From assembly GCF_016744175.1 (NCBI RefSeq), contig NZ_JADGEV010000036.1, positions 1 to 40,806 on the forward strand: a stretch of 40,806 nucleotides of DNA, in the 5' to 3' direction. Every line of letters begins with the position of its first letter. Positions within the stretch are counted from its first letter, which is position 1. The notes beneath the pieces were generated by a model. The model saw only the letters and a list, made by a program, of their open reading frames with translations. It did not search any database and was not told where the DNA came from. Origin of the DNA: Neptunomonas sp. (GTDB taxonomy: Bacteria > Pseudomonadota > Gammaproteobacteria > Pseudomonadales > Balneatricaceae). A program made the translations under genes and the position numbers. Shown in pieces: positions 6,840-39,080 of this stretch.

Positions 6840-6886
6840 TTATACCCCACGCTTATACTGTTCCATTGCCTTAAAAGTCACATATG

Positions 6887-7369: not shown

Positions 7370-7411
7370 AGCCGTCTCCATTAATCAATAAAATGTATAC
7401 CTACCTGATTA

Positions 7412-20763: not shown

Positions 20764-21201
20764 TATCAATTTCTTCCGGTTACGAAGCTCTAATCACATT
20801 CTAAAATCAAATAGAATGATGACTTGTCCGCAAAATAGAAGGGTATATAAAACTGTTGTACTTACTCAATATAAAAGCAATTTTTAATGCTTAAAGTGCA
20901 AACAGATCTATCAAGCCTTCTTATCCCTGAAAACCAAACCGCACAAGAAAAACTTATCAATTTATGTTTGAAAATCTTATTTAAAAACAACTAATTAAAT
21001 AGTTATTCATAAGTAAATATTCTGCATAAACTTCTATTCCAAAGCCCTTCTAACGTTCAATCTACACCAGACATCAATTAAAAATCAATCCTGAATAATA
21101 AATAAATGAATTTAATGATGAGATGTTCATTAACAACTATTGACGGTTTATCTGATAACTGACAGTTTACTAGGATGAGATAAACAATAAGAAAATTAAT
21201 T
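20764..21201. promoter_or_regulatory. Divergent intergenic region between tssA and the Ser/Thr kinase gene
   Basis: 438 AT-rich bases separate the start of tssA (minus) from the kinase gene (plus), so promoters for both must lie here. A TTGACG hexamer is at 21140-21145 on the kinase side, but I see no well-spaced -10 for it. A short inverted repeat (AACTA...TAGTT) lies near 20990-21005. I looked for a sigma-54 site (TGGCAC-N5-TTGC) on both strands and saw none. No coding sequence is evident. Confidence 0.5.
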
Positions 21202-22650
21202 ATGAGTGAAAACAAAAAAAATGATGAAACTGTTATATTGAATGATAAAACAGTTATAAAACATCAAATTAAAGACATAACAAAACCCTCTATCTCTCCT
21301 AGTTTATTAAAAGAAAATACTGATTTTAATGGAAGAGAAAATCCAACAAACGAATCCATAATTCAGGATAAAACCCCAATAAAATCAAAAAATTCCATTG
21401 GCATAGGATCAACTATAAATAATCGATTTACCATAGATAGATTATTGGGAAAAGGTGGTATGGGTATCGTCTACCGAGCACTTGATATAAGAAAGCAGGA
21501 AGCAAAAGATCGTGATCCTTATGTTGCCATTAAAATTCTCAATGACGAGCTGAAAGACCACCCTCAATTTTTTATAGCCCTACAACGAGAAGCTAGAAAA
21601 TCACAGACACTAGCTCACCCAAACATCATTACCGTTTATGATTTTGATAGAGACGATGAAACAGTTTACATGACCATGGAAATACTCAAAGGTGTTTCAT
21701 TAGAAGATTTCATTAAAAACAACCCTAATGGCGTTAGCATAAAATCTGCATGTAAAATCATACAAGATATCGCACAGGGGTTAAGCTATGCTCACGCCAA
21801 TAAAATCATCCATTCTGATTTAAAGCCTGGAAATATTTTCGTCTCTGATGACGGATCAGCCAAGGTGCTTGACTTCGGTATTGCCCGCGCGATGACAAAC
21901 CTAAGCGACATAGCCAGTGATAAAACGCTCTTTGATGCGGCTCAATTAGGTGGACTAACCCCCACTTATGCCAGTGTTGCAATGTTTGAAGGAAAAGAGC
22001 CCCACCCGAGCGATGATATATATGCATTAGGGCTTATCAGTTATGAACTACTGACGGGAAGGCATCCATATCAACGCAAACCCGCAAGCATAGCCATAAT
22101 AAAGCACAAAAAAGTTACACAAGTTAAAGGACTAAAAAACCATCAATGGAGTGCAATAGCCTCAGCTATTGAGTTAAAAAGAGAAAATAGAAATGCTAAC
22201 GCAGAACAATTTCTCGCAAAATTTAATGGCACTCCTTCTGCAACAAGGAACCTCATTCTTGTCCTGATTTTAACAATAACAATAATTGGCTCAGCTATGC
22301 TTGTTAAAAAGCCAAAAGAAGGGCCTGAAATTCCATTTGCATCTTTACCACAAAAAGTGCAACAAAATGTAGAGCAAGCTTTATATAATGGAAATCAATC
22401 ACTTAAGTTTAATGACTATAATGGAGCACTGCATTATTTCAACTATGCTTACGAACTTCATCCTAAGAATAAAGCATCCGTTGAAGGCTTAAACTTCGTT
22501 GTTGATAAAGTTCTTTTAAATATTAAAAACACACCTGAAACGCATTCTGATGAATCTAATTTAAAACAAGTAAATACTTTGCTGGGATACTCCTCTTTGT
22601 CTAATAATCAAGTACTTAAAAACATTAAGAAAGAATTAGAAGGAGAATAG
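21202..22650 (+). CDS. Transmembrane Ser/Thr protein kinase, T6SS-linked (PpkA-like)
   Basis: 482 residues. The Hanks-type kinase domain spans about 75-340: glycine loop LLGKGGMGIVY (81-91), catalytic Lys in VAIK (Lys111), catalytic loop HSDLKPGN (204-211) and DFG (224-226). The HRD Arg is Ser here, so it is a non-RD kinase. A single membrane helix (about 351-368) follows and then a C-terminal domain of about 110 residues with TPR-like pattern (NGALHYFNYAYELHPKN). The N-terminal 75 residues contain ETVILNDKTVIK, two Thr-Val-Ile blocks that could be phosphorylated and read by an FHA protein. Divergent from tssA, it probably controls T6SS assembly in the manner of PpkA; that role is inferred. 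Confidence 0.88.
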   Translation: MSENKKNDETVILNDKTVIKHQIKDITKPSISPSLLKENTDFNGRENPTNESIIQDKTPIKSKNSIGIGSTINNRFTIDRLLGKGGMGIVYRALDIRKQEAKDRDPYVAIKILNDELKDHPQFFIALQREARKSQTLAHPNIITVYDFDRDDETVYMTMEILKGVSLEDFIKNNPNGVSIKSACKIIQDIAQGLSYAHANKIIHSDLKPGNIFVSDDGSAKVLDFGIARAMTNLSDIASDKTLFDAAQLGGLTPTYASVAMFEGKEPHPSDDIYALGLISYELLTGRHPYQRKPASIAIIKHKKVTQVKGLKNHQWSAIASAIELKRENRNANAEQFLAKFNGTPSATRNLILVLILTITIIGSAMLVKKPKEGPEIPFASLPQKVQQNVEQALYNGNQSLKFNDYNGALHYFNYAYELHPKNKASVEGLNFVVDKVLLNIKNTPETHSDESNLKQVNTLLGYSSLSNNQVLKNIKKELEGE

Positions 22651-22689
22651 TAAAGAAATGAAGGTACGCATAAATTATTGATAAAAACC

Positions 22690-23592
22690 TTAATATCTCC
22701 TATCGATAAAAGCTTGATCTAAGCGCGACAAAATATTTGGCCATTCTGATTCCCAACAACACTTATGCCCGAAGTGTGGATACTTCCATACAGTACCACC
22801 ATGTTTTTTTATAAAAGATTCAGTGATACTTGGAGGTACCACTTTATCCATCATCCCTATGATATGTATGAATAAAATATCACTCCTAGTGTATGCTAGC
22901 TCTATAGGATTAATAGAATGATTTAATGGTAAAAAACCTTTCTCCCTTGCCCAATTTTTAATATCTAAATTCCCAGCAATGGTTACCACCGAAACCACAT
23001 TTGAAAGCCTGTTTGCTAGTAATGTTGCTATCACAGCGCCGCCACTGTATCCAAATAAAACAACCTCACTATCACCAGAAACTTCCCTTACCGCAGCTTC
23101 CATACTATTGAGTACATTTTTAGAATAACGGGCACTTGTCCACATCTCAGAAGTGCAACTCTCTTTTACCGCAAGCCCAAAATAACATGGACGACCCATT
23201 AAAATTGAGTGAGCACTATCAACAACCATTAATCTCAATATCAAAGGATCACTTGAAGTTGGATCACTTGAAATCCACTTTCCCTTAATCCATGGAATGC
23301 CATCTCCGCCGATGTAAATATGGATTTTAGTCTTTTTTTTCATACTGTTATGAAATACTACATGATCATGAATCGATGTTTTAAGTACTTCTTTTTTTAA
23401 CGAATATTTTACAATAGCCGTATCTATTTTATTGTTAAATTGAGTGCATCCATTGATTAGAAGCAGGAGTACAACTATAACCAAAGAAAACAATTTATAA
23501 GAAAACAACACTATTTTAATAACATATCTCCCATAAAATATTCCATAAAGTAATATACGCTTTAGAAAATAGAGAACACCATATAAACTCAA
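22690..23592 (-). CDS. Alpha/beta-hydrolase lipoprotein
   Basis: Up to 300 residues. Nucleophile elbow GYSGG (Ser183 in the longest form), oxyanion-side motif HIYIGGDGIPW (about 91-101), and a late His (HFGHKCC) give a plausible Ser-His catalytic set. A block resembling DPLILRLMVVDSAHSILMGRPC is, as far as I remember, typical of a family of uncharacterised hydrolases. The hydrophobic run ending in LLLLINGC is a lipobox with Cys49, so the mature protein is probably a membrane-anchored lipoprotein. No in-frame ATG precedes the lipobox: the longest start is TTG at 23592, while GTG at 23511 would give a normal-length lipoprotein signal. Convergent to the kinase gene; the substrate is unknown. Confidence 0.75.
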   Translation of the reverse strand: MSLYGVLYFLKRILLYGIFYGRYVIKIVLFSYKLFSLVIVVLLLLINGCTQFNNKIDTAIVKYSLKKEVLKTSIHDHVVFHNSMKKKTKIHIYIGGDGIPWIKGKWISSDPTSSDPLILRLMVVDSAHSILMGRPCYFGLAVKESCTSEMWTSARYSKNVLNSMEAAVREVSGDSEVVLFGYSGGAVIATLLANRLSNVVSVVTIAGNLDIKNWAREKGFLPLNHSINPIELAYTRSDILFIHIIGMMDKVVPPSITESFIKKHGGTVWKYPHFGHKCCWESEWPNILSRLDQAFIDRRY

Positions 23593-23667
23593 TATAAATT
23601 AATAACATAGCTCGCATTATAATCACAGGCACATCGGTTTAATAATAAAACGATAGCATTTGTATAA

Positions 23668-23694
23668 TTGACAAAAAACACATTTAGTGTTTTT
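23668..23694. promoter_or_regulatory. TTGACA box overlapping a perfect inverted repeat
   Basis: In the 139-base gap between the divergent hydrolase and caspase-like genes a consensus -35 hexamer TTGACA (23668-23673) is directly followed by an 8-bp perfect inverted repeat, AAAAACAC-ATTTA-GTGTTTTT (23674-23694). The repeat could be an operator for a promoter reading towards 23732; a good -10 is not obvious. It could alternatively be a weak terminator hairpin. Confidence 0.35.
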
Positions 23695-23731
23695 CTGAAA
23701 TAATGTACAAAACGATGCCAAGGATAGAGTC

Positions 23732-25330
23732 ATGAGTTTAGTACGAGCACTTAAAAAATCGTTCGTTTTACTTATATTTACTTCTATACTTTGTGGCTGT
23801 ATAAATACGCGGCCGACTAATCATCAAACATCTCACCCAAAAATTTCAGACCTTCAAATCATTGATTGCTTACTCCCAGGTCAAGTACGTAGGCTAGGAA
23901 ATAGTACTTACATAACTCCGCGAAGACCAACTAATACAACCGCAGCAGATTGTAGAATACGAGGCGGAGAGTACGTTGAATATGATCGTGCTAACTACAA
24001 GTCTTCTCTTAATGTATGGCTTGCTACCGCACGACAAGGCGATGCAGATGCACAAGTAAACGTGGGTGAAATTTTTGAACGTGGAACAGGCGGTGAGCCG
24101 AACTATAAAGCAGCGGCTATTTGGTATACCAAAGCAGCCAATCAAGGGAATGAACGCGCTCAATTTAATTTAGGGACACTTTATGAGCAAGGCTTAGGCG
24201 TTCCCAAAAATAAATTATTGGCTCTCAATTGGTACCGTAAAGCATGGGGAATGCCTACGGATGACCTGATTTTCCAATCCGCAGCAAAAAAAGAACAGCA
24301 ACTATTAAAAGCTAAGCTACAGAAAAAACTCAATGAAAAATCTTCACAAATAGGCTTACTAAAAAATCAAACTCAATCATTACGAGAAAATTTAAGGCAA
24401 AAGAACAGTGGTACTCAAACAAAGTTAAAACAACTAACGCAATGGATAGCAAAGCTTGAACAAGAAAAAGCGGAAGCTAAAACACAACTAACTGCGTTAC
24501 CCATTTTCCGAGAGCCTCAAGCAGCATCAACCTCTTCCAAACACTCACCAGTGAAACCTCTTTCATTAACGGATGTGAAATTTGGAAAGTACTATGCGCT
24601 AGTAATAGGCAATCAAAACTACACCCAGCTAGAAAGCTTATATTCTCCAAGGCGAGATGCAAAACACGTAGCCACAGTCCTAGAGCGTAAGTACGGTTTT
24701 TCTGTCCAGCTCCTTCTAGATGCAACTAATATCGAAGTCATGCAAGCAATTAATGATCTTAATGGTGTGCTTAGTCGTAATGATAACTTACTTATATTCT
24801 ATGCTGGGCACGGAAGCCGAGTTAAAAATGGCAGCACTGAAGACGGTTATTGGCTCCCCGTAAATGCCAACCCCCCTCCCACAGATACCTTTTGGGTTTC
24901 TAATGAGTTTATTACCCGCCACCTCAGCCGCCTGAGTGCTAAACGTGTCTTAGTTGTTGCTGACTCATGCTATGCAGGATTACTCTCAAATGCGCCCGAC
25001 TATCTTTTCATGGGCGACAAACCAAACTACACCGAAGAGTACTTACGCTATAAATTACAGAAAAAATCTCGACTAATTTTATCCTCCGGTGGAGACAAGC
25101 CCGTGCTTGATAATGCAGGCCAAGGACACTCAATATTTGCAAAAGCATTTCTGGAAGCCCTTGAATCTAATACTAAAATTATTGCGGGGCCTGAACTTTA
25201 CATAAAAATAAGAGACCGTGTGACCGAAGGATCACATGCTTTCGGATATGACCAAGAACCTGTATTTAAAGCAATCAAAGGGGCTGGCCATGAAGTAGGA
25301 GATTTTTTCTTTGTACCCTTAGAGACTTAA
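23732..25330 (+). CDS. Sel1-repeat / caspase-like (peptidase C14) lipoprotein
   Basis: 532 residues. A lipoprotein signal ends in LCGC (Cys23). Two Sel1 repeats lie at about 104-172 (DADAQVNVGEIFERGTGG, ERAQFNLGTLYEQGLGV), followed by a coiled coil at 185-255. The C-terminal caspase-like fold runs about 285-500: YYALVIGNQNY, catalytic His in YAGHGS (His360) and catalytic Cys in VVADSCYAG (Cys413), so both dyad residues are intact. AAGGATAG precedes the ATG. The predicted location is the inner face of the outer membrane or the periplasm. It is 42 bases upstream of the autotransporter-type gene. Family knowledge: bacterial caspase homologues cleave proteins, often after Arg/Lys; the target here is unknown, and the barrel protein next door is an obvious candidate. 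Confidence 0.88.
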   Translation: MSLVRALKKSFVLLIFTSILCGCINTRPTNHQTSHPKISDLQIIDCLLPGQVRRLGNSTYITPRRPTNTTAADCRIRGGEYVEYDRANYKSSLNVWLATARQGDADAQVNVGEIFERGTGGEPNYKAAAIWYTKAANQGNERAQFNLGTLYEQGLGVPKNKLLALNWYRKAWGMPTDDLIFQSAAKKEQQLLKAKLQKKLNEKSSQIGLLKNQTQSLRENLRQKNSGTQTKLKQLTQWIAKLEQEKAEAKTQLTALPIFREPQAASTSSKHSPVKPLSLTDVKFGKYYALVIGNQNYTQLESLYSPRRDAKHVATVLERKYGFSVQLLLDATNIEVMQAINDLNGVLSRNDNLLIFYAGHGSRVKNGSTEDGYWLPVNANPPPTDTFWVSNEFITRHLSRLSAKRVLVVADSCYAGLLSNAPDYLFMGDKPNYTEEYLRYKLQKKSRLILSSGGDKPVLDNAGQGHSIFAKAFLEALESNTKIIAGPELYIKIRDRVTEGSHAFGYDQEPVFKAIKGAGHEVGDFFFVPLET

Positions 25331-25372
25331 TAATTAACACTTGAGCTTGTACAAATAATAAAGGAGCTAGTC

Positions 25373-27088
25373 ATGATTAAGCCTGCTGCACTGTTGTCAT
25401 TAGTTAAGGCAAGTGGCCCATTAAAATATTTCACCTTACTCATACTTTTACAATGCCTTGTCTCCAAAGCATTGCTTGCTGCCTCAATCACCCCAACATC
25501 CTTAGACTTTGGCGAAGTAGTTGTTGGTCAATCGCCCAAACTCATCACTATAAATGTGTTATTCGATTCTACAGACGCGGGCAGCGATCTCTTTATTGGC
25601 TCCCCGAATAGCCCGTTTTTAATTAGTACTAACAACTGCCCTTCATTTGTCAGTACAACAAACGCTAGTTGTGACGTACAAGTTGCTTTTGAGCCAACAG
25701 CCAATGGAAGCTACCCGAGTAGCTTTGATATCAATGTTGGTAATACGGCCACTGAGATCTCTTTGACAGGGACAGCCAGTACAAAATCAACGACAGACTT
25801 AGTAAAAGATGAACTTATAAAATTTTCTAATGGAAACCCCAATATTATTGCGACTAGCGAGGCTATTTCTACTGCATGTGTTAGTGGCAATATAACAGCG
25901 GCATTGCAAAGAGATTGTAATTCACTCGTCCAATCAGCCTTTGATGGTAATGCTGCGACATCTACCGCCTTGGCACAAATCACACCAGAGACAGCAACAA
26001 AAGCTAACCAAACTACACAAAAAGGGGGCGCAACCCAGACAAGTAATATTAATTCACGTATCAGCGCTCTAAGAAATGGAGCTTTTGGTATTTCTCTTAC
26101 CGGCCTTAATCTCCAAACAGAAGACCAAAATATGCCGATCGGCCAACTTGCTCAGACCCCTCTTCGTATGAAAGGCGGCGGAGCTAGTGCTGACGATAGT
26201 ATCTTATTTGGACAAAAATTAGGTGCATTTATAACGGGCACAATATCTACCGGAGAAAAGGAAGAATCAAGCCTAGAATCAGGTTTAGACTTTGACACTT
26301 ATGGTATTACCGCCGGAGTCGATTACCGTATTTCAGATCAATTCTTCTTAGGTATTGCACTGGGATATATGAATACCGATACAAATTTTAACAATAGTAA
26401 AACCGAACTAGATACTAGAGGATATAGCCTAAGCACTTACGGTAGCTATTACACCACCCGCGGCTATTATGTTGATTTTTCAGCAACTTATGGAAAAAAT
26501 AATTTCGATCAAAAGCGCCATATAAGCTACCAACTAGACAATACAGTCAATGTAAACCAAGTTTTTACAGCGGATTATAGCGGCGATGTTTATTCACTCG
26601 TACTGGGTTTAGGCCGCGACTATAACAAAGGAGCTTGGTCTTTCAGCCCGAAAGTAGATTTGGAATATACTCGCGCAAATGCAAACCAAATCACTGAACA
26701 ATCCTCTGCTCCCACTGCTTTAGGAAGTGGTTGGGGTACGCAAATAGAGAGTACAGATCAAAAATGGCTAACCCTTCAAGTGGGCGGAAAGGTTTCATAT
26801 GCGCAGAGTACCAGCTGGGGAGTCCTGATTCCCTATGCCGAACTCGGTTTATTACACGAGTTTAAGCAGGACTCACAAACTATATCTGGAAGCTTTAGCG
26901 GTGATTTTGCTTCCAACCAACTACAAATCACGACTGACAACCCTGATAGAAACTATATGACACTGAGTATAGGTACATCCGTACAACTCAAACATGGGGC
27001 ATCTGGGTTTGTTAGCTATAGTACGCTTTTATCTAATAATGTATGGAGCGAAAACACTATTCGTTTAGGCATGCGCGCAGAGTTTTAG
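25373..27088 (+). CDS. Autotransporter-type outer-membrane beta-barrel protein with HYDIN/ASPM-like Ig domain
   Basis: 571 residues. A long signal peptide ends near ALLA-AS (about 36). Residues 37-130 form a choice-of-anchor-D/HYDIN-like Ig domain (ITPTSLDFGEVVVGQSPKLITINV, CDVQVAFEPTANGSY). A linker with four Cys in total follows, then a C-terminal barrel from about 290 (DFDTYGITAGVDYRISDQFFLGIALGYMNTD) ending in Phe after RLGMRAEF, as expected for Bam-dependent insertion. AAGGAG precedes the ATG by about 7 bases. The passenger region is short compared with classical autotransporters. In an apparent operon with the caspase-like lipoprotein. Confidence 0.88.
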   Translation: MIKPAALLSLVKASGPLKYFTLLILLQCLVSKALLAASITPTSLDFGEVVVGQSPKLITINVLFDSTDAGSDLFIGSPNSPFLISTNNCPSFVSTTNASCDVQVAFEPTANGSYPSSFDINVGNTATEISLTGTASTKSTTDLVKDELIKFSNGNPNIIATSEAISTACVSGNITAALQRDCNSLVQSAFDGNAATSTALAQITPETATKANQTTQKGGATQTSNINSRISALRNGAFGISLTGLNLQTEDQNMPIGQLAQTPLRMKGGGASADDSILFGQKLGAFITGTISTGEKEESSLESGLDFDTYGITAGVDYRISDQFFLGIALGYMNTDTNFNNSKTELDTRGYSLSTYGSYYTTRGYYVDFSATYGKNNFDQKRHISYQLDNTVNVNQVFTADYSGDVYSLVLGLGRDYNKGAWSFSPKVDLEYTRANANQITEQSSAPTALGSGWGTQIESTDQKWLTLQVGGKVSYAQSTSWGVLIPYAELGLLHEFKQDSQTISGSFSGDFASNQLQITTDNPDRNYMTLSIGTSVQLKHGASGFVSYSTLLSNNVWSENTIRLGMRAEF

Positions 27089-29946: not shown

Positions 29947-30879
29947 TCATATCCAAACTTTTTTTACAGCCCCCCTTTGCTCTCTAACAGCGCTACGTAA
30001 TTCATCAAAAAGTGCCAAGTTAAAATTAATTGTTCGCAACTTGGATTTACCCTCTCTTTTCGGTTTAACTAAGCCTAAAAGGGGGTACGACTTATCTTGA
30101 GTTTGGAGAGCAATGCGAGAATTCCTTGTTAATAGCTCCACAGGATTTTCAGATAACTCAATATTAATAATTTCAAACAACCAAATGGAAGTGTGTGTCC
30201 GGAATAAAATGCCTTTACGTATATCAATTCGCCTTTCATATATATCATATTTGGTAGTAACAGAGCGGAGTATTATATCTACAAATGTAGGTAAAAAGAA
30301 TATTATTGCAGCAAATCCTATTATATCTCTAAAACGGCCAAAATAGGTGTGTATCAAGCGCTTATCCAAATCTAAAAAGAGGATTAGAAACAATACACTA
30401 CCAATCAACAACATAATAATATGAATAGAAAAGCTTGTTGGACGTCTATACTTTGACGAATACAGCAACAAGCCAGGGCCATCTTCATCTTGTGTTTGAA
30501 AAACAGTTTGTTTTGGTTGATCAGCGACAGTTGGCTCTATGCCTAGTTCGGAAAGTTTTTTCTGAGCGACTTCCAAATCAGGGTCAATCAATAAAGCCAT
30601 ATGATACTTTTCTATCGCTTTATCTTTATCTCCCCTCCTCTCTTTTGTCAGCCCTAAATAATACCAAGCCAATGAGTTTCTTGGTTCAACCTCGATCAAA
30701 GCACTAAAGCTATCCCCAGCTTCCTTGAATTTTTCAAGCCTAAAGTCACATACACCCAACTTATATAACGCCTCAAAATTTTTATCAGAATTTTCTAGTA
30801 CTTCTGCAAAGAGTGGGCGTGCCAAGGTAATTTGATTTTTATTAAAGTACTGATTGGCTAATTTAAACTTAGATTCCAT
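29947..30879 (-). CDS. TPR protein with two membrane helices and a bacterial PH domain
   Basis: 310 residues. Three TPR units occupy about 1-115 (LANQYFNKNQITLARPLFAEVLENS, ALYKLGVCDFRLEKFKEAGDSF, AWYYLGLTKERRGDKDKAIEKY). Two hydrophobic helices lie around 155-172 and 187-205. The C-terminal 100 residues (YDIYERRIDIRKGILFRTHTSIWLFEIINIEL) look like a bacterial PH (DUF304/bPH_2) domain. GGGAG lies 8 nt before the ATG, and the stop of the OmpA-like gene is only 15 bases upstream, so the two form an operon. It probably sits in the inner membrane with TPR and PH parts in the cytoplasm. Function unknown. Confidence 0.8.
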   Translation of the reverse strand: MESKFKLANQYFNKNQITLARPLFAEVLENSDKNFEALYKLGVCDFRLEKFKEAGDSFSALIEVEPRNSLAWYYLGLTKERRGDKDKAIEKYHMALLIDPDLEVAQKKLSELGIEPTVADQPKQTVFQTQDEDGPGLLLYSSKYRRPTSFSIHIIMLLIGSVLFLILFLDLDKRLIHTYFGRFRDIIGFAAIIFFLPTFVDIILRSVTTKYDIYERRIDIRKGILFRTHTSIWLFEIINIELSENPVELLTRNSRIALQTQDKSYPLLGLVKPKREGKSKLRTINFNLALFDELRSAVREQRGAVKKVWI

Positions 30880-30894
30880 AAAGTTTACTCCCAG

Positions 30895-32799
30895 TTAGGC
30901 GGCTGGTGCATCTGATGCATTTTCTGCAGCTGCGGCATCTGCTGATGGAGGCGGCGATGGTGGTTCATCATCACATGAATTTATACTTTCCTTCGATTCT
31001 TCAACTTCGCCATGCTCATAATGATCTTCACCGTCCTTGTTATCTTCACCATCCTTAGTATCCTCGCCATCCTTAGTATCCTCGCCATCCTTGTTATCTT
31101 CCTTATCATGCTCGTCGAACAAGTCATTTGGTTCATCTGGATCAGGATAGCTCATATCCGACTCTGCAGTTGTTACCTCAGCATGATCGGACGACGAAAG
31201 TAAAACCATACTATCCTCATCTGTATCCCAAGGGTTCTGTATAGGTGTTGCACCAGAGGGGGGTGTCATAATGTCATTATCAGCAATACCTTCTTCATTA
31301 GGTAAGCATTCTAATTGAGGCCCATCTGGGACACCTGTATAAAAATGACCGTCAACTAATTGAGGCTCAGCTGGATCAAAGGGTTGTAAAATAATATCAT
31401 TACCGACGGGACCATTTGGGTAAGAAGTAATGCCTTCAGCTACTTGAGGTTCGTCTGAGTCAGGATGACCGTCCATATCCAATTCTACTGAATCAAAACT
31501 AACCTCATCTGAACCCCAGGGGTCTTGCGCGGATGCTGAGTCAGAAGGGTCTAAAGTAACACTATTGCCGGCTTGATCAGTTACTTCAGCCGCTTTTATC
31601 ATCTCACTGACTTGCTGGTTTATATCATCTACAGTAACAGCCCAACTTTGTATAATTAAAATACCATTACTTTCAATAAAATAGAGACCTGATTCATCAT
31701 AGCTAGATTTGTATCTATACTCCGAAGCGTTAAATGCTTTTTCCGCTCCAGATTGTATCGTGTGACCGCTAAAAATCGCATCAAGTCTTCCCTCAGAAAG
31801 CCGTGTAGGATTTGCACTCACATTAGGTCCTTGATCTTTTTCTACTAAGTAAGCCTGTATTGCATGTTTCTCTCTAGTGCTTAATTTTTCTACTTTCGGT
31901 AGTAAATGATTGTAAAGAGCCCTTTGAACATCTGTCATACTTTTTAGGTCAGCATCATAATTTTCATCGATACCAGCGGCTACTGCTATTGAAAGGGCTT
32001 GATACATGTCATATCGTTGATCAGCAATCTCTCCAGTTAAGTTCGATATAGCAAGATCAACAAAACTACCTAATATCGATTTACCTAAAGTTTTACCCAC
32101 TTGTAATGGATTGATTTTTCTCCCGCCTTTTAAAATACCCCAAACTTGCTCTTGAAATTCTTCTTGATTGTCAGATGGAGCAGCCATAATCGGATTTTCA
32201 GGCAGCGCTATATCCCGTCTTATTAGGTCAGCCTCAGGTTCAACCAACTTCTGGAATAGCTCTTTTCCATCTACCCAGTCTTGATCAAAGTTATCAGGAA
32301 AACGTTCATTTCTAAGCTCTGTCAGTTCTGATTCATCCTTTACGCCTTCCTCCTTTTCTGGGATAGGATCCGGGACATTATTATATTCAATGTCAATAAG
32401 AGCACTGCGACTCTCGGCCACATCATATTCAGCATTAGGGTTTTCTGGTTCATCTATTCCAGGCTCTACAGCCCACTCCCCCATCGGGATCACGCTTATT
32501 CTCTCAGAATCTACTCCTTGATCGACTAGCCATGCTTTTAGCCATTGGGCTCGTTTAAGAGATAGATTACGATTAAATGAATTTGAACCTGGATGGCTGG
32601 CATAACCGCGAATAATGACTTTATTATGAGTGCCAACAATATCGTGCTGTATTTTATCGAAATATTGAATCAAATTTTTCTGTGTTTTAAGGTCAGGTAC
32701 CGATTTTCCAAATTCGAACCCCACTCCATTTTCAGGCTGAGAAACGAATTCTTTTTCATTAATCGGGTCACCAAGTGTTATTTTTGACTTCCTACTCAT
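30895..32799 (-). CDS. Leaderless OmpA-like protein with acidic repeat tail
   Basis: 634 residues from ATG at 32799 (MSRKSKITLGDPINE), with GAGGA about 8 nt upstream; an earlier in-frame start would add 11 residues. Residues about 25-135 are an OmpA-C-like domain (NKVIIRGYASHPGSNSFNRNLSLKRAQWLKAWLVDQGV, RISVIPMGE, ESRSALIDIEY), the peptidoglycan-binding fold. There is no signal peptide or membrane helix, which is unusual for this fold. The middle (200-400) is helical and unrecognised; the last 220 residues are strongly acidic, ending in five or more EDxKDG repeats and an Ala-rich tail. It shares an operon with the TPR/PH gene. It could be secreted by a non-Sec route, for example the T6SS; that is only an idea. 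Confidence 0.75.
   Translation of the reverse strand: MSRKSKITLGDPINEKEFVSQPENGVGFEFGKSVPDLKTQKNLIQYFDKIQHDIVGTHNKVIIRGYASHPGSNSFNRNLSLKRAQWLKAWLVDQGVDSERISVIPMGEWAVEPGIDEPENPNAEYDVAESRSALIDIEYNNVPDPIPEKEEGVKDESELTELRNERFPDNFDQDWVDGKELFQKLVEPEADLIRRDIALPENPIMAAPSDNQEEFQEQVWGILKGGRKINPLQVGKTLGKSILGSFVDLAISNLTGEIADQRYDMYQALSIAVAAGIDENYDADLKSMTDVQRALYNHLLPKVEKLSTREKHAIQAYLVEKDQGPNVSANPTRLSEGRLDAIFSGHTIQSGAEKAFNASEYRYKSSYDESGLYFIESNGILIIQSWAVTVDDINQQVSEMIKAAEVTDQAGNSVTLDPSDSASAQDPWGSDEVSFDSVELDMDGHPDSDEPQVAEGITSYPNGPVGNDIILQPFDPAEPQLVDGHFYTGVPDGPQLECLPNEEGIADNDIMTPPSGATPIQNPWDTDEDSMVLLSSSDHAEVTTAESDMSYPDPDEPNDLFDEHDKEDNKDGEDTKDGEDTKDGEDNKDGEDHYEHGEVEESKESINSCDDEPPSPPPSADAAAAENASDAPAA
31024..31095. 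repeat. 18-bp tandem repeat, four units
   Basis: Four consecutive 18-bp units (ATCTTCACCATCCTTAGT and near copies) lie inside the OmpA-like gene and encode the acidic hexapeptide repeat (D-N/T-K-D-G-E). Unit number is likely to vary by slippage between strains. Confidence 0.9.
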
Positions 32800-32920
32800 A
32801 ATGCATTTCCTCTTTCTCAACGAGATAAACACTGGCCTTTATACTCTCACGGTGCAATTACAAAACACAATATAAGTTATTTTGATATTTATTCTTTCCG
32901 TTAAGGCGTAATTCTAAAAA

Positions 32921-33272: not shown

Positions 33273-33716
33273 ATGACTACTCAAATCGCCAAACTACAAA
33301 GCCTATTACCCGACTCGATCCATGCGGTGGCAGCGGCCATCGGTATGCCTGCCACACTCAAGTTATTAGAACGGTTGGGCGGTACTACATTGCCGATGCG
33401 CTTGGAGGTTAACCGTTTGGGTCGTGCGGCGCTTGATGCTTTGTCTCAACAGATAGGCCATGATGAAACCCAAAAGCTGGCGTTATATTCTGGCGGTGAG
33501 CCGCTGTATATACCCCAGTGTCATGTGGCCGTTCGTCGTTTGCGTGATCTAGATATCTGCTCTGCATTTGAAGCGGCGGTACGTGATGGAACAACGGCCA
33601 ACGCTGCCGTGACTGAGCTGGCTTTAAAGTACAAGCTGACTGATCGGTGGGTGTGGCGTATTTTGAAAGAGACGCCGATCCAGATTGAACCTGCCACGCC
33701 TGATCTATTTAACTAA
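33273..33716 (+). CDS. Mor/C-type phage transcription activator-like protein
   Basis: 147 residues. The pattern GEPLYIPQCHVAVRRLRDLDICSAFEAAVRDG, then VTELALKYKLTDRWVWRILKE, is that of the Mor/C family of phage Mu activators: a short beta-strand dimer region ending in YIP, then a helix-turn-helix. In Mu-like phages Mor turns on middle and late transcription. Here it precedes three tail-type genes on the same strand with no replication, portal or capsid genes. The 114 bases to the next gene would hold the promoter it might control. Confidence 0.65.
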   Translation: MTTQIAKLQSLLPDSIHAVAAAIGMPATLKLLERLGGTTLPMRLEVNRLGRAALDALSQQIGHDETQKLALYSGGEPLYIPQCHVAVRRLRDLDICSAFEAAVRDGTTANAAVTELALKYKLTDRWVWRILKETPIQIEPATPDLFN

Positions 33717-33830
33717 GCCATTTGAGCAGCCACTTAACTCCTTCCCCTAATCCCTTCGCACCACACTTAATACACTGCTGATATCACCACTATTGATCTA
33801 GCGTTTACGCAAACAATAAGGAATGTCAGC

Positions 33831-34247
33831 ATGTTTGAAAAACTACCACGACTCGCTATCCCTGGCAGCATGGCCGAATGCGCCAACTGTGTGGCGGGCC
33901 GCTCTGAATATATCGGCGAATCTAAATGGGGTATCAAGAACGGTATCGCCAACTATAACGACACGGCCATTAATCAATACGGCGAATGGAGTGTGGGCAA
34001 TATCCCGCTTAATGCAAAGCGCCTCACCGTGGATATCTGGGTGCAGACCACCAATAACCAGCCTGAAATAGACCGTGTTACTCGCCAGATTAACAAGCTG
34101 GCCGGAGTGCCTATTGTCTTTGATGCGAACAACGATGACACAGACCACGAAACCTACCGTGTATTCGGTATCTGCACCGACTTTTATCAGGTCGTTCCTT
34201 ACGCGACAGAAACCCAATGCAACATGGAAATATTAGGACTCAGATAA
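33831..34247 (+). CDS. Phage tail-associated protein
   Basis: 138 residues, MFEKLPRLAIPGSMAECANC, with AAGGA 8 nt before the ATG. The product is a small soluble mixed fold (YGEWSVGNIPLNAKRLTVDIWVQTTNNQPEIDRVTRQINKLAGVPIVFDANN) of the sort found as minor tail or baseplate proteins upstream of tail fibres in Mu-like phages. The assignment rests mainly on its neighbours. Its TAA overlaps the next ATG (TAATG). Confidence 0.5.
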   Translation: MFEKLPRLAIPGSMAECANCVAGRSEYIGESKWGIKNGIANYNDTAINQYGEWSVGNIPLNAKRLTVDIWVQTTNNQPEIDRVTRQINKLAGVPIVFDANNDDTDHETYRVFGICTDFYQVVPYATETQCNMEILGLR

Positions 34248-35707
34248 TGGCTATTGACCAACAGATTGCAGTATTCCCCCCGTTTCCCAAACGCCTAACC
34301 GAAGGCCGTATCTATGTGCCTCAGATGGACGCAGCGCTTAACCGACTAGAGACGCTAGATACCGAACTCAACACCTGGGGCCAAGAAGCCAACCAGCTGC
34401 AAATAGAGATTAACAGTGCCGCGCAATCGGCCAGTGCTGATAGTGATACAGCGCAAAACGCAGCAACAGTGGCGACAAACAAAGCAACACAAGCCAGCGA
34501 CTACAAAGACTCTATTGAAGCGCTAGCCGCTGCTGTTATGTCTGCGATGGGTTTACCCTCTCTGACCGGTAATGCAGGAAAGCGCTTAACCGTTCTTAGT
34601 AATGAAATGGGTGTAGCTTGGATAGGTGGTTTTGCACATCCCGCGTATATCAATAACGCCGCCACCGGCACTGTTGATTTGAACCTAAAAGCGGCCACAG
34701 TTTTTGAGTTAACACTCACCGGTGATGTCACCCTCAATGCTATCAATCTACCCACAGGCAATGAGCGTTCGGTTGCCTATCTGAATGGCACCAATCTTGG
34801 AAGTTACGCCGTTACCAGTAATATCGATTTTTCGAGTGTGGCATTGCTGGCGGGGTATTCCGTCTCGCAGATGAAAAAAACAGGGCGCACGTTCACGCCA
34901 GATGCGGCGGCGGGTTCTGAGTTAGCTGAAATGAAGCTTAGTAACGCAGGTGACAAGCTGATTGTTATGGGCAAAGGCAGCTCAAATGCCTCCATCATTA
35001 CGGTGTATCACTGCAACCAAGGACTTGACTCGATCACGCTTCACTCATCCCATACGATTGATTACACGTTCACAGGGTTGGATGTGTTTGCAATCAGTGA
35101 CGATGGCACAAAAATGGTCGTACGCAAATGGGCATCAAATGAAGTTGCTTACTGGACGTTATCAACTCCATGGGACGCTACAACCCTGACAAAAATAGGC
35201 GTTATTGCTCCGGCTCATTACAGTTCGATTGGCTATATATATGCAATGGCATTTTCGGGTGATGGTGCACGTTTTTACGTGGTTGACGGTGATTCGAGTT
35301 TGCTGTGGTGGGATATACCAACCGCATTTGACATATCCAGCATAGCCAGCGGCCCAGCTGGAAGCACGCAAATAACATCATCAAATATGGGGTTGGCTAG
35401 CCTAACAATCTTGCCTAATCATTCCGGCCTTATTATTACGAATGGGTATAACGATGACACGCATGGTCGCCGCCTGGAAAAGTGGGCGTTTCCAAGCATA
35501 GGCAATCCAGTTGGTGCAACGCTAGCAGAAGTATCCACCTCACTTTACGCTGATATGAATGTCCCCAGACGCAGCACATTTATTAATGACGGGTCGCGTG
35601 TTATTGCGTTCGGAAATACAAAAACATTGCATGAATACGACATTCAGACATCGCAAATTATCACGCTTCATCAAGTCGGCAATACCATCATCGCGAGGAA
35701 TACATAA
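34247..35707 (+). CDS. Phage tail fibre-like protein
   Basis: 486 residues from ATG at 34247, which shares its A with the stop of the previous gene. An N-terminal attachment part (PPFPKRLTEGRIYVPQMDAALNRLETLD) leads into a coiled-coil Ala/Gln-rich shaft (IEINSAAQSASADSDTAQNA), then a beta-rich region (ATGTVDLNLKAATVFELTLTGDVTLNAINLP) common in tail fibres. The C-terminal 250 residues look like a YVTN/WD-type propeller (ISDDGTKMVVRKW, FSGDGARFYVVDGD), probably the receptor-binding head. Part of a three-gene translationally coupled unit. Confidence 0.7.
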   Translation: MAIDQQIAVFPPFPKRLTEGRIYVPQMDAALNRLETLDTELNTWGQEANQLQIEINSAAQSASADSDTAQNAATVATNKATQASDYKDSIEALAAAVMSAMGLPSLTGNAGKRLTVLSNEMGVAWIGGFAHPAYINNAATGTVDLNLKAATVFELTLTGDVTLNAINLPTGNERSVAYLNGTNLGSYAVTSNIDFSSVALLAGYSVSQMKKTGRTFTPDAAAGSELAEMKLSNAGDKLIVMGKGSSNASIITVYHCNQGLDSITLHSSHTIDYTFTGLDVFAISDDGTKMVVRKWASNEVAYWTLSTPWDATTLTKIGVIAPAHYSSIGYIYAMAFSGDGARFYVVDGDSSLLWWDIPTAFDISSIASGPAGSTQITSSNMGLASLTILPNHSGLIITNGYNDDTHGRRLEKWAFPSIGNPVGATLAEVSTSLYADMNVPRRSTFINDGSRVIAFGNTKTLHEYDIQTSQIITLHQVGNTIIARNT

Positions 35708-36315
35708 TGCGCCAGTATGCACATGTGGTTGGACAACAAATCCTCAATACCAGTATCAGGAAAGGCACGGTGTATCAGGGGACGTTCTACAGTAATGATG
35801 TGGCCTTGCAGGCTAATTCTGAGCTGCTACCTGAAGTGAGTATTCAACCATCATATGACCCGTTAACCCAAGCACTAGCGATTGATCGTTACGAGGTCAA
35901 CGGCAATCAAGTCGATGTCATCTATGTTGCTATAGCCCGTAACCCTGACGATATAACCGCAGATAAACAGGCCGTTATTGATCAAATAGAGCAGGCTCAT
36001 GATGAGATATCGAAGCGTGCGGTTGGCGTCGATGGTATCAACTATCAAGGCGGTTGGCAGTCGGCGGTGGTAATTAATGGCTCAGCAGACATGGTCGTGA
36101 ATATGGGCGGTAGCAGCTGTAGTATTGTGGATGCCACCGGTACAACTCACGCACTCTCCATTGCAGAAACACGTAATGTGGCGACGCAAATATCCATAGT
36201 CTATCAAACAGGGTTTATGGCTAAAGTGGCCGCGTTAACAGCAGCGATCAGTGCCACTAACCAGGTTGAACTGGATGCGGCACTGAGTGGCTTTGTGGCG
36301 GGGTTTGTTGTTTAG
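35707..36315 (+). CDS. Phage tail fibre-associated protein
   Basis: 202 residues. The ATG at 35707 overlaps the stop of the fibre gene (TAATG), so the pair is translationally coupled. N-terminal beta-rich part, then a helical segment (DKQAVIDQIEQAHDEISKRA) and an Ala-rich C-terminus. I do not recognise a family; position suggests a fibre-assembly or baseplate protein. The gene ends only a few bases before an attC-like site on the other strand. Confidence 0.55.
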   Translation: MRQYAHVVGQQILNTSIRKGTVYQGTFYSNDVALQANSELLPEVSIQPSYDPLTQALAIDRYEVNGNQVDVIYVAIARNPDDITADKQAVIDQIEQAHDEISKRAVGVDGINYQGGWQSAVVINGSADMVVNMGGSSCSIVDATGTTHALSIAETRNVATQISIVYQTGFMAKVAALTAAISATNQVELDAALSGFVAGFVV

Positions 36316-36322
36316 GTGAAGA

Positions 36323-36371
36323 AAAAAACGCCGCATTCAGCAGCTTGTCCGCTGTAATGCTTTGTTATAGC
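36323..36371 (-). repeat. Short attC-like site at the phage-module/cassette junction
   Basis: On the minus strand CTATAACAAAG (left core, with the stop of the nucleotidyltransferase gene) is followed by GCATTACAGCGG pairing with CTGCTGAATGC across ACAAG, with one extrahelical A, and then GCGGCGTT. The right core degenerates into a T-run. The attC-type structure is clear although the site is only about 49 bp. Confidence 0.6.
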
Positions 36372-36847
36372 GCTGATACTTGCAACAATTCTTGGACATC
36401 AATATGGTCAACTTCTCGTCCCAGTAAACGTTTGTAACTGATCAGTTCTGGAATTGGAATAACTGGAACTTCCATGCCTAAGTAACTCTTGACAACCGAC
36501 GCAGAAAAGTCTGTATGTAACTCATACCAAGAACCATTTTCGGATGATTGAATTTTGGTTCCCGGAAACAAACCGATTTCTATTTTTTGTGATTGGTAGA
36601 TTAACTGAAAGTACTCTAAATCCCATGAGCCCTCGACGCAATGAGTTAGCGGCTTAGAAATATAGGGGGTAACCTCCGATAGAACTTTAGCCGCATCGGC
36701 TTTTTTAATGTAGAGGTCAATATCAGCGACCTCTCGGCTACCACCATGAATTGTTGCCGCAAGCCCACCAACGATTTGATACGCTACTTGTTGCGATTCT
36801 AGTAGGTTATTCAACCATTCCAATGCTACTTTAACTCTATCGCTCAT
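36365..36847 (-). CDS. Nucleotidyltransferase-fold protein (AbiEii/MNT-like), cassette gene
   Basis: 160 residues. VGGLAATIHGGSREVADIDLYI carries the GG...D-x-D signature of the DNA-polymerase-beta-type nucleotidyltransferase fold, with both Asp present. GAGGG precedes the ATG. Similar small stand-alone proteins occur as toxin or resistance-type transferases and in integron cassettes; the substrate cannot be told from sequence. The stop lies in one attC-like site and another attC-like site is upstream. Confidence 0.7.
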   Translation of the reverse strand: MSDRVKVALEWLNNLLESQQVAYQIVGGLAATIHGGSREVADIDLYIKKADAAKVLSEVTPYISKPLTHCVEGSWDLEYFQLIYQSQKIEIGLFPGTKIQSSENGSWYELHTDFSASVVKSYLGMEVPVIPIPELISYKRLLGREVDHIDVQELLQVSAL

Positions 36848-36875
36848 CCTGAACCCTCTGCTAATTTGACCCTGC

Positions 36876-36966
36876 GCTATAACGCCGCTATAAAAGACGC
36901 GCGCTAGCGCGTCCAGTGGAGGCCGTTTTTTTGGCCGGAACGGTTTTTGATAGCCTTGTTAGCTGG
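36876..36966 (-). repeat. attC-like integron recombination site
   Basis: On the minus strand it runs from AGCTAACAAGG to GCGGCGTTATAGC, about 91 bp, with internal inverted repeats (CCGTTCCGGCC against GGCCNNNAACGG, and GACGCGC/GCGCGTC). The stop codon of the 36959-37156 gene is in the left core. This is one of the clearest attC-like sites of the window. Confidence 0.75.
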
Positions 36967-37156
36967 GCGATGTATATTTGGAGCCAAAAAAGTGGCTTAC
37001 CATAACCAAAGATATTGTTTTGAAATGCTGCCAGATTTCGTTGCTAGCCTGTGCTTTGTTGTCACTATAATGAACATAAATAACAGAAGCTACAACCAAA
37101 CCAAGCATAATAAACACTGAGATCAGAATACGGATAGAGATTTTTTTTAAAGACAT
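36959..37156 (-). CDS. Small single-pass membrane protein, cassette gene
   Basis: 65 residues from ATG at 37156 (AAGG upstream; a GTG two codons earlier is possible). MSLKKISIRILISVFIMLGLVVASVIYVHY is a signal anchor; the short remainder is polar. It ends inside the attC-like site at 36876-36966. No function assigned. Confidence 0.6.
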   Translation of the reverse strand: MSLKKISIRILISVFIMLGLVVASVIYVHYSDNKAQASNEIWQHFKTISLVMVSHFFGSKYTSPS

Positions 37157-37338
37157 AAGCACCTTATCACTGCATCAGCAGTATTAAGTGCAATGTCTCC
37201 TAAGTGGTGTGAAGTAGAAGGATATTGCGGAAATATAGATTTGCCGTATTAGGTGGCACGACCATCACCAAGGGTATTAGCCCATCGCATCTAAGCGTTG
37301 GTGTTATTTTAAACCTATTACCTGATCAATGGAAGCCT

Positions 37339-37403
37339 GCTAACGCCTCATTGAGAGGCAAAAACCAGCTGTTTTTTGTCCTGCTGAAATGACTTGTTAT
37401 ACG
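37339..37403 (-). repeat. attC-like integron recombination site
   Basis: On the minus strand it runs from CGTATAACAAG (holding the stop of the 367-residue gene) to GAGGCGTTAGC, about 65 bp, with an internal GCCTC/GAGGC hairpin and the pair CAGCAGG-type/CAGCTGG-type arms. Core sequences agree with the neighbouring sites (TAACAA ... GGCGTTA). Confidence 0.7.
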
Positions 37404-38500
37404 TTTTTTCGCGAAAAATGTTCAATCACTTTCATACCGACAACGCTATTCCGATGTCCAAAAAAATCTAAATATTTTTTAATATCTGATGTTCCACTTT
37501 GACTAAGGATAAGCTTGTTAACCATAGAACGAATACCAAATTGATTAGAAAGTGTATTAATTGGTTGCCCCTTAAGTGCAACTTTCAGCACCCCAATACC
37601 AGCAGTAAAAGTAGGAGAATTGGTATCCACAGTTCCCATTGTTGAATCTACATATTGAGAGATAGAATGGAGAATTTTAGAAAATTTAGCTTTGTCCTTA
37701 TAACTACCATCGCTTAACGATATTTGATAACAATTTAGCCAATCCCTTAATTCTTGGTATTCTCCTCTCAACTCTAGAGCAACTTTAATCAAATCTTTTA
37801 CTGAATTTGACTCTTGTATAACTCGAATCGGTAACGGGAGCATATTTACATTTAGCGCGTATAGCTCTGAATTTAAGTTATGAAGCGAAGAAATAGAGGC
37901 TCTTTTATCAGATACAAAATCATTTAATTTTAAAACAGAGTCTTCATTTGAAAGTAAAATCCCAGCTTCTGTAAAAAAACGCTTTCTAACAGGATGAGGT
38001 GTGTAACCTTTTTCATATACAAACCCTCTCGCTAGCATACCAGCACCACCCCAAAGTGTTTGGGATAAATAGCTATGAGGAGTAGTTTTGTTTTCGAGAA
38101 AACCTACTCGATTTTCTTCATGATCTTTCTTTAAATCTGATGTGAGGCTCAAACGTTCAATAAATTCATCTCGCGGTCCTTGGAGCTTTTTATAATCGAC
38201 TAAAAACGGATAAGGACGTATAACTCCCTGAGAAAGTGCCTCTTGAAAAGGGTTACCTTCTCTATTCCATGCATTAATGAAGTTTTCTTCTACTAAGATT
38301 TGATCACGAAGGATAATATCAGTAATCAAATCGAATAATGCTTCGGTATTGATAATTGCACTGATACTGGCTTCGTAAGAATAGCTGTCCTTCTCTTTAT
38401 CAATCGTGATGTAGTGAGATTCACTTTCATCAATACCTGAGTTAATTAACTCACCAATATTTTGTAATGACCAGTTATCTGCAATAACACTTTGACTCAT
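37397..38500 (-). CDS. Hypothetical cassette protein (367 aa)
   Basis: A 367-residue soluble protein, starting MSQSVIADNWSLQNIGELIN, with AAGGA 7 nt before the ATG. No signal peptide or membrane helix. I do not recognise a domain; it is mostly helical, with YLSQTLWGGAGMLARGFVYEKGY in the middle and a C-terminus ending FFGHRNSVVGMKVIEHFSRKN. It is large for a cassette gene and sits between two attC-like sites. Many unknown cassette genes serve in defence or stress; that is only a general hint. Confidence 0.75.
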   Translation of the reverse strand: MSQSVIADNWSLQNIGELINSGIDESESHYITIDKEKDSYSYEASISAIINTEALFDLITDIILRDQILVEENFINAWNREGNPFQEALSQGVIRPYPFLVDYKKLQGPRDEFIERLSLTSDLKKDHEENRVGFLENKTTPHSYLSQTLWGGAGMLARGFVYEKGYTPHPVRKRFFTEAGILLSNEDSVLKLNDFVSDKRASISSLHNLNSELYALNVNMLPLPIRVIQESNSVKDLIKVALELRGEYQELRDWLNCYQISLSDGSYKDKAKFSKILHSISQYVDSTMGTVDTNSPTFTAGIGVLKVALKGQPINTLSNQFGIRSMVNKLILSQSGTSDIKKYLDFFGHRNSVVGMKVIEHFSRKNV

Positions 38501-38543
38501 TTAAAATCCTTTTAATCATCTCATGCACCAGACTGCTTGAAAC

Positions 38544-38593
38544 GTATAACAGTCTGTTTATGAGGAACGCGTCCTCATAATAATTATTATCAG
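38544..38593 (-). repeat. Degenerate attC-like site
   Basis: On the minus strand the right core GTTATAC (38550-38544) is clear, and a strong hairpin TTATGAGGA-CGCGT-TCCTCATAA precedes it, but the left core is only TGATAATAA. It directly follows the stop of the small 38590-38775 frame, as expected for a cassette. Confidence 0.45.
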
Positions 38594-38775
38594 GAATCCC
38601 TATAAGTCCTTTTACGATGCTCATATGGATTACAACCTATTGATACATCTAATAAAAATCCTGCCCTCATAAATGCTAAGTAATTAAGAGGGAAAGATTC
38701 TGCCTCATTCATCTCTGCTGATACGACCATAATTACACACTCAACAGACAAAGACACAGCTAATTGATGTACCAC
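38590..38775 (-). CDS. Possible small cassette ORF
   Basis: 61 residues from a GTG at 38775, open a further 14 codons upstream without a better start. It has a hydrophobic first half (LAVSLSVECVIMVVSAEM) and a polar, basic end (NPYEHRKRTYRDS). It ends at the degenerate attC-like site. The lack of a clear start makes it doubtful; it may be a remnant. Confidence 0.3.
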   Translation of the reverse strand: MVHQLAVSLSVECVIMVVSAEMNEAESFPLNYLAFMRAGFLLDVSIGCNPYEHRKRTYRDS

Positions 38776-38954
38776 TAATATAGACCACTGAACCCCTTCC
38801 TGTAAGCCTTACTAAGACCATCTGATTAAATAGATTCTGCCGAATTTAATTAAATGAGCCGCGCCGCGTTGATAATCAATATTTCAGACAACGTCGGCAT
38901 AAATAAAGAAGGTGTAAGCCACTAAGGGAAAATCAAAAGACAAGAGGAAGCGGC

Positions 38955-39073: not shown

Positions 39074-39080
39074 TTCACAC

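Follow-up and report, generated by a model that had tools for sequence, protein, structure and literature searches.

A conserved kinase, hydrolase, caspase, and barrel gene group that looks like a cell-envelope signaling unit, wired to type VI secretion in some bacteria

The Ser/Thr kinase PpkA of the type VI secretion system (T6SS) receives envelope inputs that differ between bacteria, namely TagQRST in Pseudomonas aeruginosa, RtkS in Serratia marcescens, the outer-membrane protein TssW in Acidovorax citrulli, and an unknown one in Agrobacterium tumefaciens (excerpts of PMC10482370, PMC6082577, and PMC12607579). The TagQRST-PpkA system responds to outer-membrane damage (excerpts of PMC11881912). 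Here we describe four neighboring genes of Neptunomonas sp., located on a complete contig of 40,806 bases (contig C40 of the 4.2-Mb genome G000; the whole contig is referred to below as the window), that encode a PpkA-like transmembrane Ser/Thr kinase, an alpha/beta-hydrolase lipoprotein, a Sel1-caspase lipoprotein, and an outer-membrane barrel protein. The group is a conserved module, and its T6SS link is real without defining it. Overall, the four-gene set looks like an undescribed cell-envelope signaling unit that is wired to T6SS only in some bacteria.

Compared to the PpkA-Fha-PppA/TagF pathway with TagQRST of P. aeruginosa, the module likewise has a Ser/Thr kinase predicted to sit in the inner membrane with a domain in the periplasm; in the TagQRST system, the kinase is fed by a lipoprotein of the outer membrane together with a protein of the periplasm, and genes for FHA, PP2C, and TagF proteins adjoin some copies of the module. 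The two differ in that the module has a caspase, a hydrolase, and a barrel, and in that no T6SS was found in most carriers of the short caspase form defined below. TagR carries an FGE-sulfatase domain and TagS/TagT are an ABC transporter, and neither an FGE-sulfatase nor an ABC-transporter match was obtained for the four module proteins in Pfam and NCBIfam. RtkS-PpkA of S. marcescens and TssW-PpkA-Fha of A. citrulli, as described in the excerpts cited above, rely on envelope proteins that are specific to their lineages and contact PpkA at its periplasmic domain; each is a single input protein, as opposed to three in the module, and the likeness is drawn from these descriptions. The excerpt on TssW leaves caspases unmentioned. 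PknS-EcfK of Xanthomonas citri resembles the module in having a transmembrane Hanks-type kinase tied to T6SS, where, according to its abstract, PknS acts on an ECF sigma factor controlling T6SS expression; the abstract names no caspase, hydrolase, or barrel. With regard to the protease, a survey of prokaryotic caspases (passages of Asplund-Samuelsson et al. 2012, PMC3501461) reports Peptidase_C14 together with Sel1 in 40 bacterial sequences, and caspase operons containing various hydrolases, signaling domains, and OmpA proteins; the N-terminal domain of the present caspase and the four-gene neighborhood do not appear in its operon section or in those passages. The author of an earlier note on this DNA knew of no described system with such a composition, and searches of the open-licence literature found none.

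Within the window, the kinase gene (21202-22650, plus strand, an open reading frame [ORF] of 482 amino acids) is divergent from tssA, from which it is separated by 432 bases (20770-21201). It is followed by the hydrolase (22690-23592, minus strand, 300 amino acids, TTG start), the caspase (23732-25330, plus strand, 532 amino acids, Peptidase_C14 fold), and the barrel (25373-27088, plus strand, 571 amino acids), whose ORF begins 42 bases past the caspase on the same strand. These positions agree with the arrangement given in the earlier note, and ORFs together with Pfam matches support four real genes, the matches being strong for the kinase, caspase/Sel1, and barrel and weak for the hydrolase, to which a fold model was added. 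The strand of the hydrolase, left unstated in that note, is opposite to that of the other three, such that kinase and hydrolase are convergent while hydrolase and caspase diverge from a 139-base intergenic region (23593-23731). A single operon for the four genes was ruled out because the hydrolase lies on the minus strand.

To evaluate recurrence of the group, 390 genomes of the order were searched with the caspase at an E value of 1e-25, and a relative was found in 54, 25 of these having the short form; the division into short and long caspases is our own, and a few relatives on the long list lack the N-terminal domain. Flanking regions were fetched for the 24 other short-caspase genomes and for 80 loci, the best 80 of 538 confirmed relatives, which favors close kin. 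Removal of 20 loci with a twin of more than 95% identity reduced the 113 loci (the window and L041 to L152) to 93. Genome searches scored the best 3 caspase, 5 sheath, 6 hydrolase, and 4 kinase candidates per genome, and per-genome counts are therefore lower bounds; distances in the counts for the 25 genomes and for kinase-sheath pairs are between start coordinates. When neighbors from 32 loci (window excluded) were clustered all against all, only four clusters spanned at least five families of the order: the caspase (13 families), kinase (9), barrel (8), and hydrolase (6). Among 57 nonredundant loci flanked by 6 kb or more on either side, a kinase was present within 6 kb in 44, a hydrolase in 38, and a barrel in 32, with none of them in 3. 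In the 25 short-caspase genomes, 23 had the kinase no more than 8 kb away, 18 had the hydrolase at up to 12 kb, and 18 had the barrel at up to 6 kb. These genomes contain 52 autotransporter barrels, 19 of which are within 6 kb of a caspase, compared to approximately 0.17 expected from the genome-wide counts, and across all 93 loci a barrel was found no more than 200 bases from the caspase in 40. Co-occurrence in other genomes had been proposed as a check on the group, and the proximity of the kinase in the short-caspase genomes, together with the four-cluster result, supports the four genes as a recurrent unit.

The exact order and strands of the window (kinase plus, hydrolase minus, caspase plus, barrel plus) were seen in L076, L080, and L112, and in a further form without the barrel in 11 loci (nonredundant counts). 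Because gene order varies between lineages, the association of the genes has survived rearrangement; module neighbors are also retained across five Zhongshania and Spongiibacter loci. Candidates for a fifth partner came from the next clusters, at four families each, a PP2C-type phosphatase (the L072 member was checked with Pfam) and AMP-binding enzymes, and in the second locus set from a leading additional cluster that contains TagF and PP2C proteins. A fifth conserved partner was rejected, as FHA, PP2C, and TagF recur in subsets only: PP2C or TagF genes adjoin some other module copies, and a protein with two FHA stretches, whose cluster covers six loci, is encoded directly upstream of the Zhongshania caspase of L078.

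The kinase has the PpkA-type layout of a Hanks kinase domain, membrane helix, and tail. Pfam Pkinase matched residues 77 to 319 (21430-22158, plus strand; E 1.4e-41), beyond which come a predicted membrane helix (approximately 22249-22305, with a hydrophobic peak at residue 350) and a C-terminal tail of about 114 amino acids (to 22647). A membrane helix was predicted in 52 of 56 relatives, whose median tail is 116 amino acids. DxT motifs occur at Thr10 and Thr17 of the window kinase, and in the N termini of 53 kinases the motif DxT[VILMQTR], picked after inspection of the alignment, was observed 112 times compared to 21.4 in shuffled sequences, with at least one copy in 47; outside the N termini there was no enrichment (26 observed, 22.7 expected). 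We infer from this distribution that the N-terminal motifs are candidate sites of autophosphorylation and FHA docking.

With respect to its relatives, the top 22 matches of the kinase profile over the 390 genomes, 11 of which are themselves in the profile, were all within 8 kb of a short caspase. Below these, the profile finds longer kinases, mostly open frames of approximately 600 to 1500 amino acids. Comparison with T6SS kinases was made by profile matches and gene distances. Among 74 further matches away from any caspase, at least 36 have their start no more than 30 kb from one of the listed sheath genes, a lower bound, since the 150 best sheath places were used and 124 of the 390 genomes bear a sheath gene; for another 19 the sheath gene is elsewhere in the genome, and for the last 19 the genome yielded none. 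T6SS kinases thus appear to be among the nearest relatives of the module kinase, though not the sole ones. A second kinase of 576 amino acids is encoded in the same genome at 15586-17316 of contig C89 (L171), which also carries TssK, TssM, TagF, and PppA.

For the hydrolase, the Pfam match was weak (Abhydrolase_1, E 4.4e-5, below the curated cutoff). Its predicted structure (mean predicted local distance difference test [pLDDT] score of 93.8) matches alpha/beta-hydrolases, with esterases and lipases among the best, and Ser183, Asp249, and His276, as well as the lipobox Cys49, were invariant in 40 of 40 aligned rows; the model and these residues are consistent with the alpha/beta-hydrolase lipoprotein that the earlier note had seen. 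A lipobox, scored with a crude pattern, was present in 43 of 55 hydrolases and 60 of 93 caspases, and Asp at +2 was found in none of the lipobox-bearing module proteins. Under the usual sorting rules, this points to the outer membrane for the lipobox proteins. Judged from their sequences, the caspase and hydrolase appear to be exported. The hydrolase was detected in 75 of the 390 genomes, comprising 22 of the 25 short-caspase genomes and 53 of the 365 others (P = 1.6e-14; this and other P values are optimistic, as the genomes are related). From 40 hydrolase places not near a caspase, 13 loci were fetched, and 8 of them (L153 to L158, L161, and L164) contain a hydrolase-barrel pair, no more than 3 kb apart, away from module caspases; the eighth such locus, L156, also has a 351-amino-acid caspase relative by hidden Markov model (HMM), and the barrels of L157 and L161 were recognized by HMM only.

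The caspase matched Pfam Peptidase_C14 (E 6.6e-24) and Sel1. Its dedicated N-terminal domain of 70 residues (36 to 105; 23837-24046, plus strand) includes the best-conserved stretch, residues 41 to 92, and the caspase domain occupies residues 285 to 515 (24584-25276, plus strand), with codons for His360 at 24809-24811, Asp411 at 24962-24964, and Cys413 at 24968-24970. The intact His360 and Cys413 reported before are both correctly placed. A structural model (mean pLDDT of 84.2, predicted template modeling score of 0.55) predicts Sel1-type helices, a long helical stretch, and a caspase fold, and the closest folds to the predicted caspase domain in the PDB were MALT1 and metacaspases. The His/Cys dyad is intact in 76 of the 93 nonredundant caspases, the window included, and lost in 17, of which 10 are in Halieaceae; Asp411 is retained in all 93. 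The Halieaceae caspases with a lost His or Cys are those of L109, L112, L114 to L118, L126 (placed in this family by tree position only), L133, L135, and L151, and these degenerate loci, natural pseudo-proteases, keep the kinase in all cases and the hydrolase in most. Conservation, expressed as the mean share of the commonest residue over 37 rows, was 0.82 for residues 41 to 92 and 0.78 for Sel1, with lower values of 0.65 for the caspase domain and 0.40 for the intervening helical stretch. The first part of the N-terminal domain had no match in Pfam or NCBIfam. A search with residues 36 to 105 gave 53 matches in 50 of 376 genomes, all 53 at caspase genes, while 7 of 60 caspase places lacked an N-domain match; this search covered 376 genomes, not 390, some perhaps being unsearched.

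Pfam Autotransporter (PF03797) matched residues 286 to 550 at the C terminus of the barrel protein (26228-27022, plus strand; E 3.3e-51), and an NCBIfam barrel model covers residues 113 to 571; residues 1 to 112 had no match in either database. A C-terminal beta-domain is the arrangement of classical (type Va) autotransporters, and no passenger family was matched in Pfam or NCBIfam. For the short Ig-like passenger claimed in the earlier note, no Ig-like family matched at an E value of 0.001. Barrels adjoining caspases range from 278 to 1305 amino acids, the shortest perhaps being cut. Ahead of the barrel, Arg234 (26072-26074, plus strand) was invariant in a 14-row alignment. The motif R[hydrophobic]xxLRx[GAS] occurred in 24 of 45 barrels beside dyad-intact caspases, in 0 of 7 beside degenerate ones, and in 3 of 28 distant barrels (28 of 33 fetched loci yielded a barrel); the P values for the comparisons, 0.0004 and 0.011, are not tests, because the motif was chosen post hoc and the rows are related. 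The three distant barrels with the motif (G149, G286, and G321) belong to genomes whose short caspase has no barrel closer than 6 kb. Having been chosen after the data were seen, the Arg motif was retained as no more than a lead.

The T6SS cluster of the window runs on the minus strand from tssA at 20769 down to a PAAR/Tox-GHH2 protein at 3489, and comprises tssA, tssB, tssC, hcp, ImpE/TagJ, tssE, tssF, tssG, clpV, and vgrG, as well as DUF6484, DUF2169, ketoacyl-synthase-like, and PAAR/Tox-GHH2 genes. Relatives of TssK, TssL, TssM, TagH, TagF, and PppA are on contig C89, and C89 and C40 are presumably parts of one T6SS; another T6SS, which has a kinase of its own, lies on contig C86. T6SS genes were present within 10 kb in 10 of the 57 well-flanked caspase loci, and, in a rough control, near none of the 13 hydrolase loci away from module caspases. 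On a caspase tree (92 rows, one fragment of less than 430 amino acids omitted, built with the "quick" method and having several long branches), the 12 T6SS-linked rows need 8 changes, at least 6 of which are forced by supported branches. The order tssA (minus), kinase (plus), hydrolase (minus), caspase (plus) is common to the window, L088, and L064; because these fall in separate supported groups, the arrangement suggests an old T6SS link that was often lost, with independent gain as the alternative.

A VipB/TssC sheath gene was found in 4 of the 25 short-caspase genomes (G000, G023, G098, and G286) compared to 120 of the 365 others, a lower frequency that is not significant (P = 0.12); some genomes are incomplete, and sheath absence means that none was found. 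In G023 and G098, the caspase and sheath gene are on different contigs. Genomes with only the long form behaved differently, as 21 of 29 had a sheath gene compared to 103 of 361 others (P = 3.6e-6). In 13 of these 21, the caspase is beside TagF, TagH, or TssK/L/M, and those 13 loci have a kinase in 12, a hydrolase in 11, and a barrel in 0 within the fetched stretch; HMMs for neighbors were built from the same loci and the T6SS models are single-sequence, and TagF of G133 and G240 and TagH of G299 were recognized by HMMs made from these loci alone. The other eight genomes (G065, G067, G100, G169, G200, G260, G261, and G381) had no T6SS-specific gene in the fetched stretch, and three of them (G065, G200, and G260) had a PP2C gene. 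The earlier note had tied the group to T6SS, and the linkage does recur; a general role is not supported, as no sheath gene was found in 21 of the 25 short-caspase genomes. The prediction that the caspase would mostly keep company with both a kinase and T6SS held for the kinase and not for T6SS, and T6SS was rejected as a general partner of the short-form module.

Composition, conservation, active-site residues, the hydrolase and caspase folds, and the occurrence of kinase relatives in T6SS clusters were computed; localization, direct contact, the direction of signaling, and output enter the following model by inference. We hold it evenly balanced whether the four genes are a trans-envelope signaling module acting as input arm for the PpkA-like kinase, the simplest reading, with a precedent in the differing envelope inputs of PpkA kinases, of which this would be another. 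The barrel would reside in the outer membrane with the caspase and hydrolase on its inner face. There, the caspase, with its N-terminal/Sel1 scaffold, the serine hydrolase, and the barrel may sense or process something at the envelope, the caspase serving as either protease or scaffold. These proteins would control the inner-membrane kinase via its tail of approximately 115 residues, and the kinase would relay the signal by phosphorylating threonines, of which those in its own DxT-rich N terminus are the probable first targets. FHA proteins could then recognize the phosphothreonine, and PP2C phosphatases could remove the phosphate. In some bacteria, probably including the one carrying the window, output would reach T6SS through TagH/FHA, PppA, and TagF; in most short-form carriers, where no T6SS was found, it would have to differ, and the best reading is that the module mostly serves something other than T6SS.

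Several observations weigh against this proposal. Hydrolase and caspase are on opposite strands in the window and may not be co-expressed. Of the 12 T6SS-linked loci, 8 have no barrel within 6 kb, and in 19 of 25 loci fetched for caspases of the long form or outlying ones the barrel is missing from the fetched stretch. In 7 of the 13 loci fetched away from caspases, an autotransporter barrel accompanies the hydrolase at a distance of up to 3 kb while caspase and kinase are absent, and hydrolase and barrel may therefore be a separate, older pair. About half of the nearest nonmodule kinases have none of the listed sheath genes nearby, and the second kinase on C89 may be the real PpkA of the window's T6SS. 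Finally, proteolysis is not needed everywhere, because 17 of the 93 caspases lack the His/Cys dyad.

Other explanations share parts of this evidence. A possible though doubtful variant is a T6SS-independent system in which an Arg-specific periplasmic caspase, with its partner hydrolase, cuts the barrel protein after the conserved Arg and the threonine kinase reads the cut state, T6SS having adopted the system repeatedly. This variant would amount to caspase-based surveillance of the bacterial envelope. Unlikely, in our judgment, is that the caspase is simply a processing protease of the barrel, cutting after Arg (RIxALR, followed by xGAxG), while the hydrolase helps by modifying lipids or glycans and the kinase only regulates expression or activity. 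MALT1 and metacaspases prefer basic P1 residues, and their similarity to the predicted fold, the universal Asp411, the close spacing of barrel and caspase, the invariant Arg234, and the distribution of the Arg motif among barrels beside intact caspases, beside degenerate ones, and at a distance all count in its favor. Besides the post hoc choice of motif and relatedness of rows, this explanation must contend with the 21 of 45 barrels beside intact caspases that lack the motif, including most of the Zhongshania group, with the short caspase of motif-bearing G321 being itself degenerate (L062/L114), and with an autotransporter N terminus that may be surface exposed while the caspase faces the periplasm.

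A further rival, following the earlier note, is a unit dedicated to T6SS that senses damage or provides self-protection. The T6SS genes near 10 of 57 loci, the sheath-bearing long-form genomes with T6SS-specific genes beside the caspase, and the damage response of TagQRST-PpkA described in excerpts of PMC11881912 would all accord with it; the scarcity of sheath genes among short-caspase genomes (not significantly below the others) does not, and we regard it as distinctly improbable. A cell-death or antiphage unit, in which the kinase would sense attack and the caspase and lipase-like hydrolase kill the cell, is very unlikely. Caspase-like proteins do feature in literature on bacterial conflict and cell death, and the PADLOC caspase model matched residues 287 to 414 of the window caspase (E 1.5e-9); PADLOC nevertheless returned generic kinase and caspase domains only, with nothing for the hydrolase or barrel and no specific match to a known defense system. 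Moreover, caspase and hydrolase appear exported, and the neighbors are stable over the five Zhongshania and Spongiibacter loci, unlike mobile defense islands. That the genes are chance neighbors, co-inherited without a functional link, is scarcely credible: order and strand do vary between lineages, yet the same protein families occur together in these varying arrangements in six to nine taxonomic families of the order, and barrel density near the caspase is far above expectation.

Other features of the window concern its origin and surroundings. G+C content is approximately 34% over the kinase/hydrolase region (21001-24000) compared to 41 to 49% over the T6SS genes, and no caspase was found in seven other genomes of the genus at an E value of 1e-20; together, these make lateral gain possible. 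VgrG, DUF6484, DUF2169, ketoacyl-synthase-like, and PAAR/Tox-GHH2 nuclease-like effector genes lie in a row within 2572-9610, and the unmatched ORF at 2572-3471 could encode the immunity protein of the adjacent effector. Beyond the barrel, an OmpA-domain protein (645 amino acids) and a TPR protein that also contains a bacterial PH domain are encoded on the minus strand (29947-32832). Further along (33273-39987), a Mor-like transcription activator and a D12 DNA methyltransferase match phage families, one ORF matches Aminoglyc_resit (PF10706) barely above the cutoff, and four ORFs had no match in Pfam or PHROGs. A prophage origin was rejected, since at 33 to 40 kb two proteins match phage families and the five others scanned gave one weak match and four none; the phage-like matches do not reach the four-gene module.

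PpkA inputs are known for few bacteria, and the module is a candidate for one more input arm, made of parts quite unlike those of the known ones. It would also place a group of exported bacterial caspase homologues in a defined genetic context. Carriers include Zhongshania, Spongiibacter, and Parahaliea, for which culture-collection strains exist, and Nitrococcus mobilis is an example of a T6SS-linked carrier, so that the proposal is directly testable, and the T6SS-linked, T6SS-free, and degenerate copies allow comparative tests of the role of the caspase.

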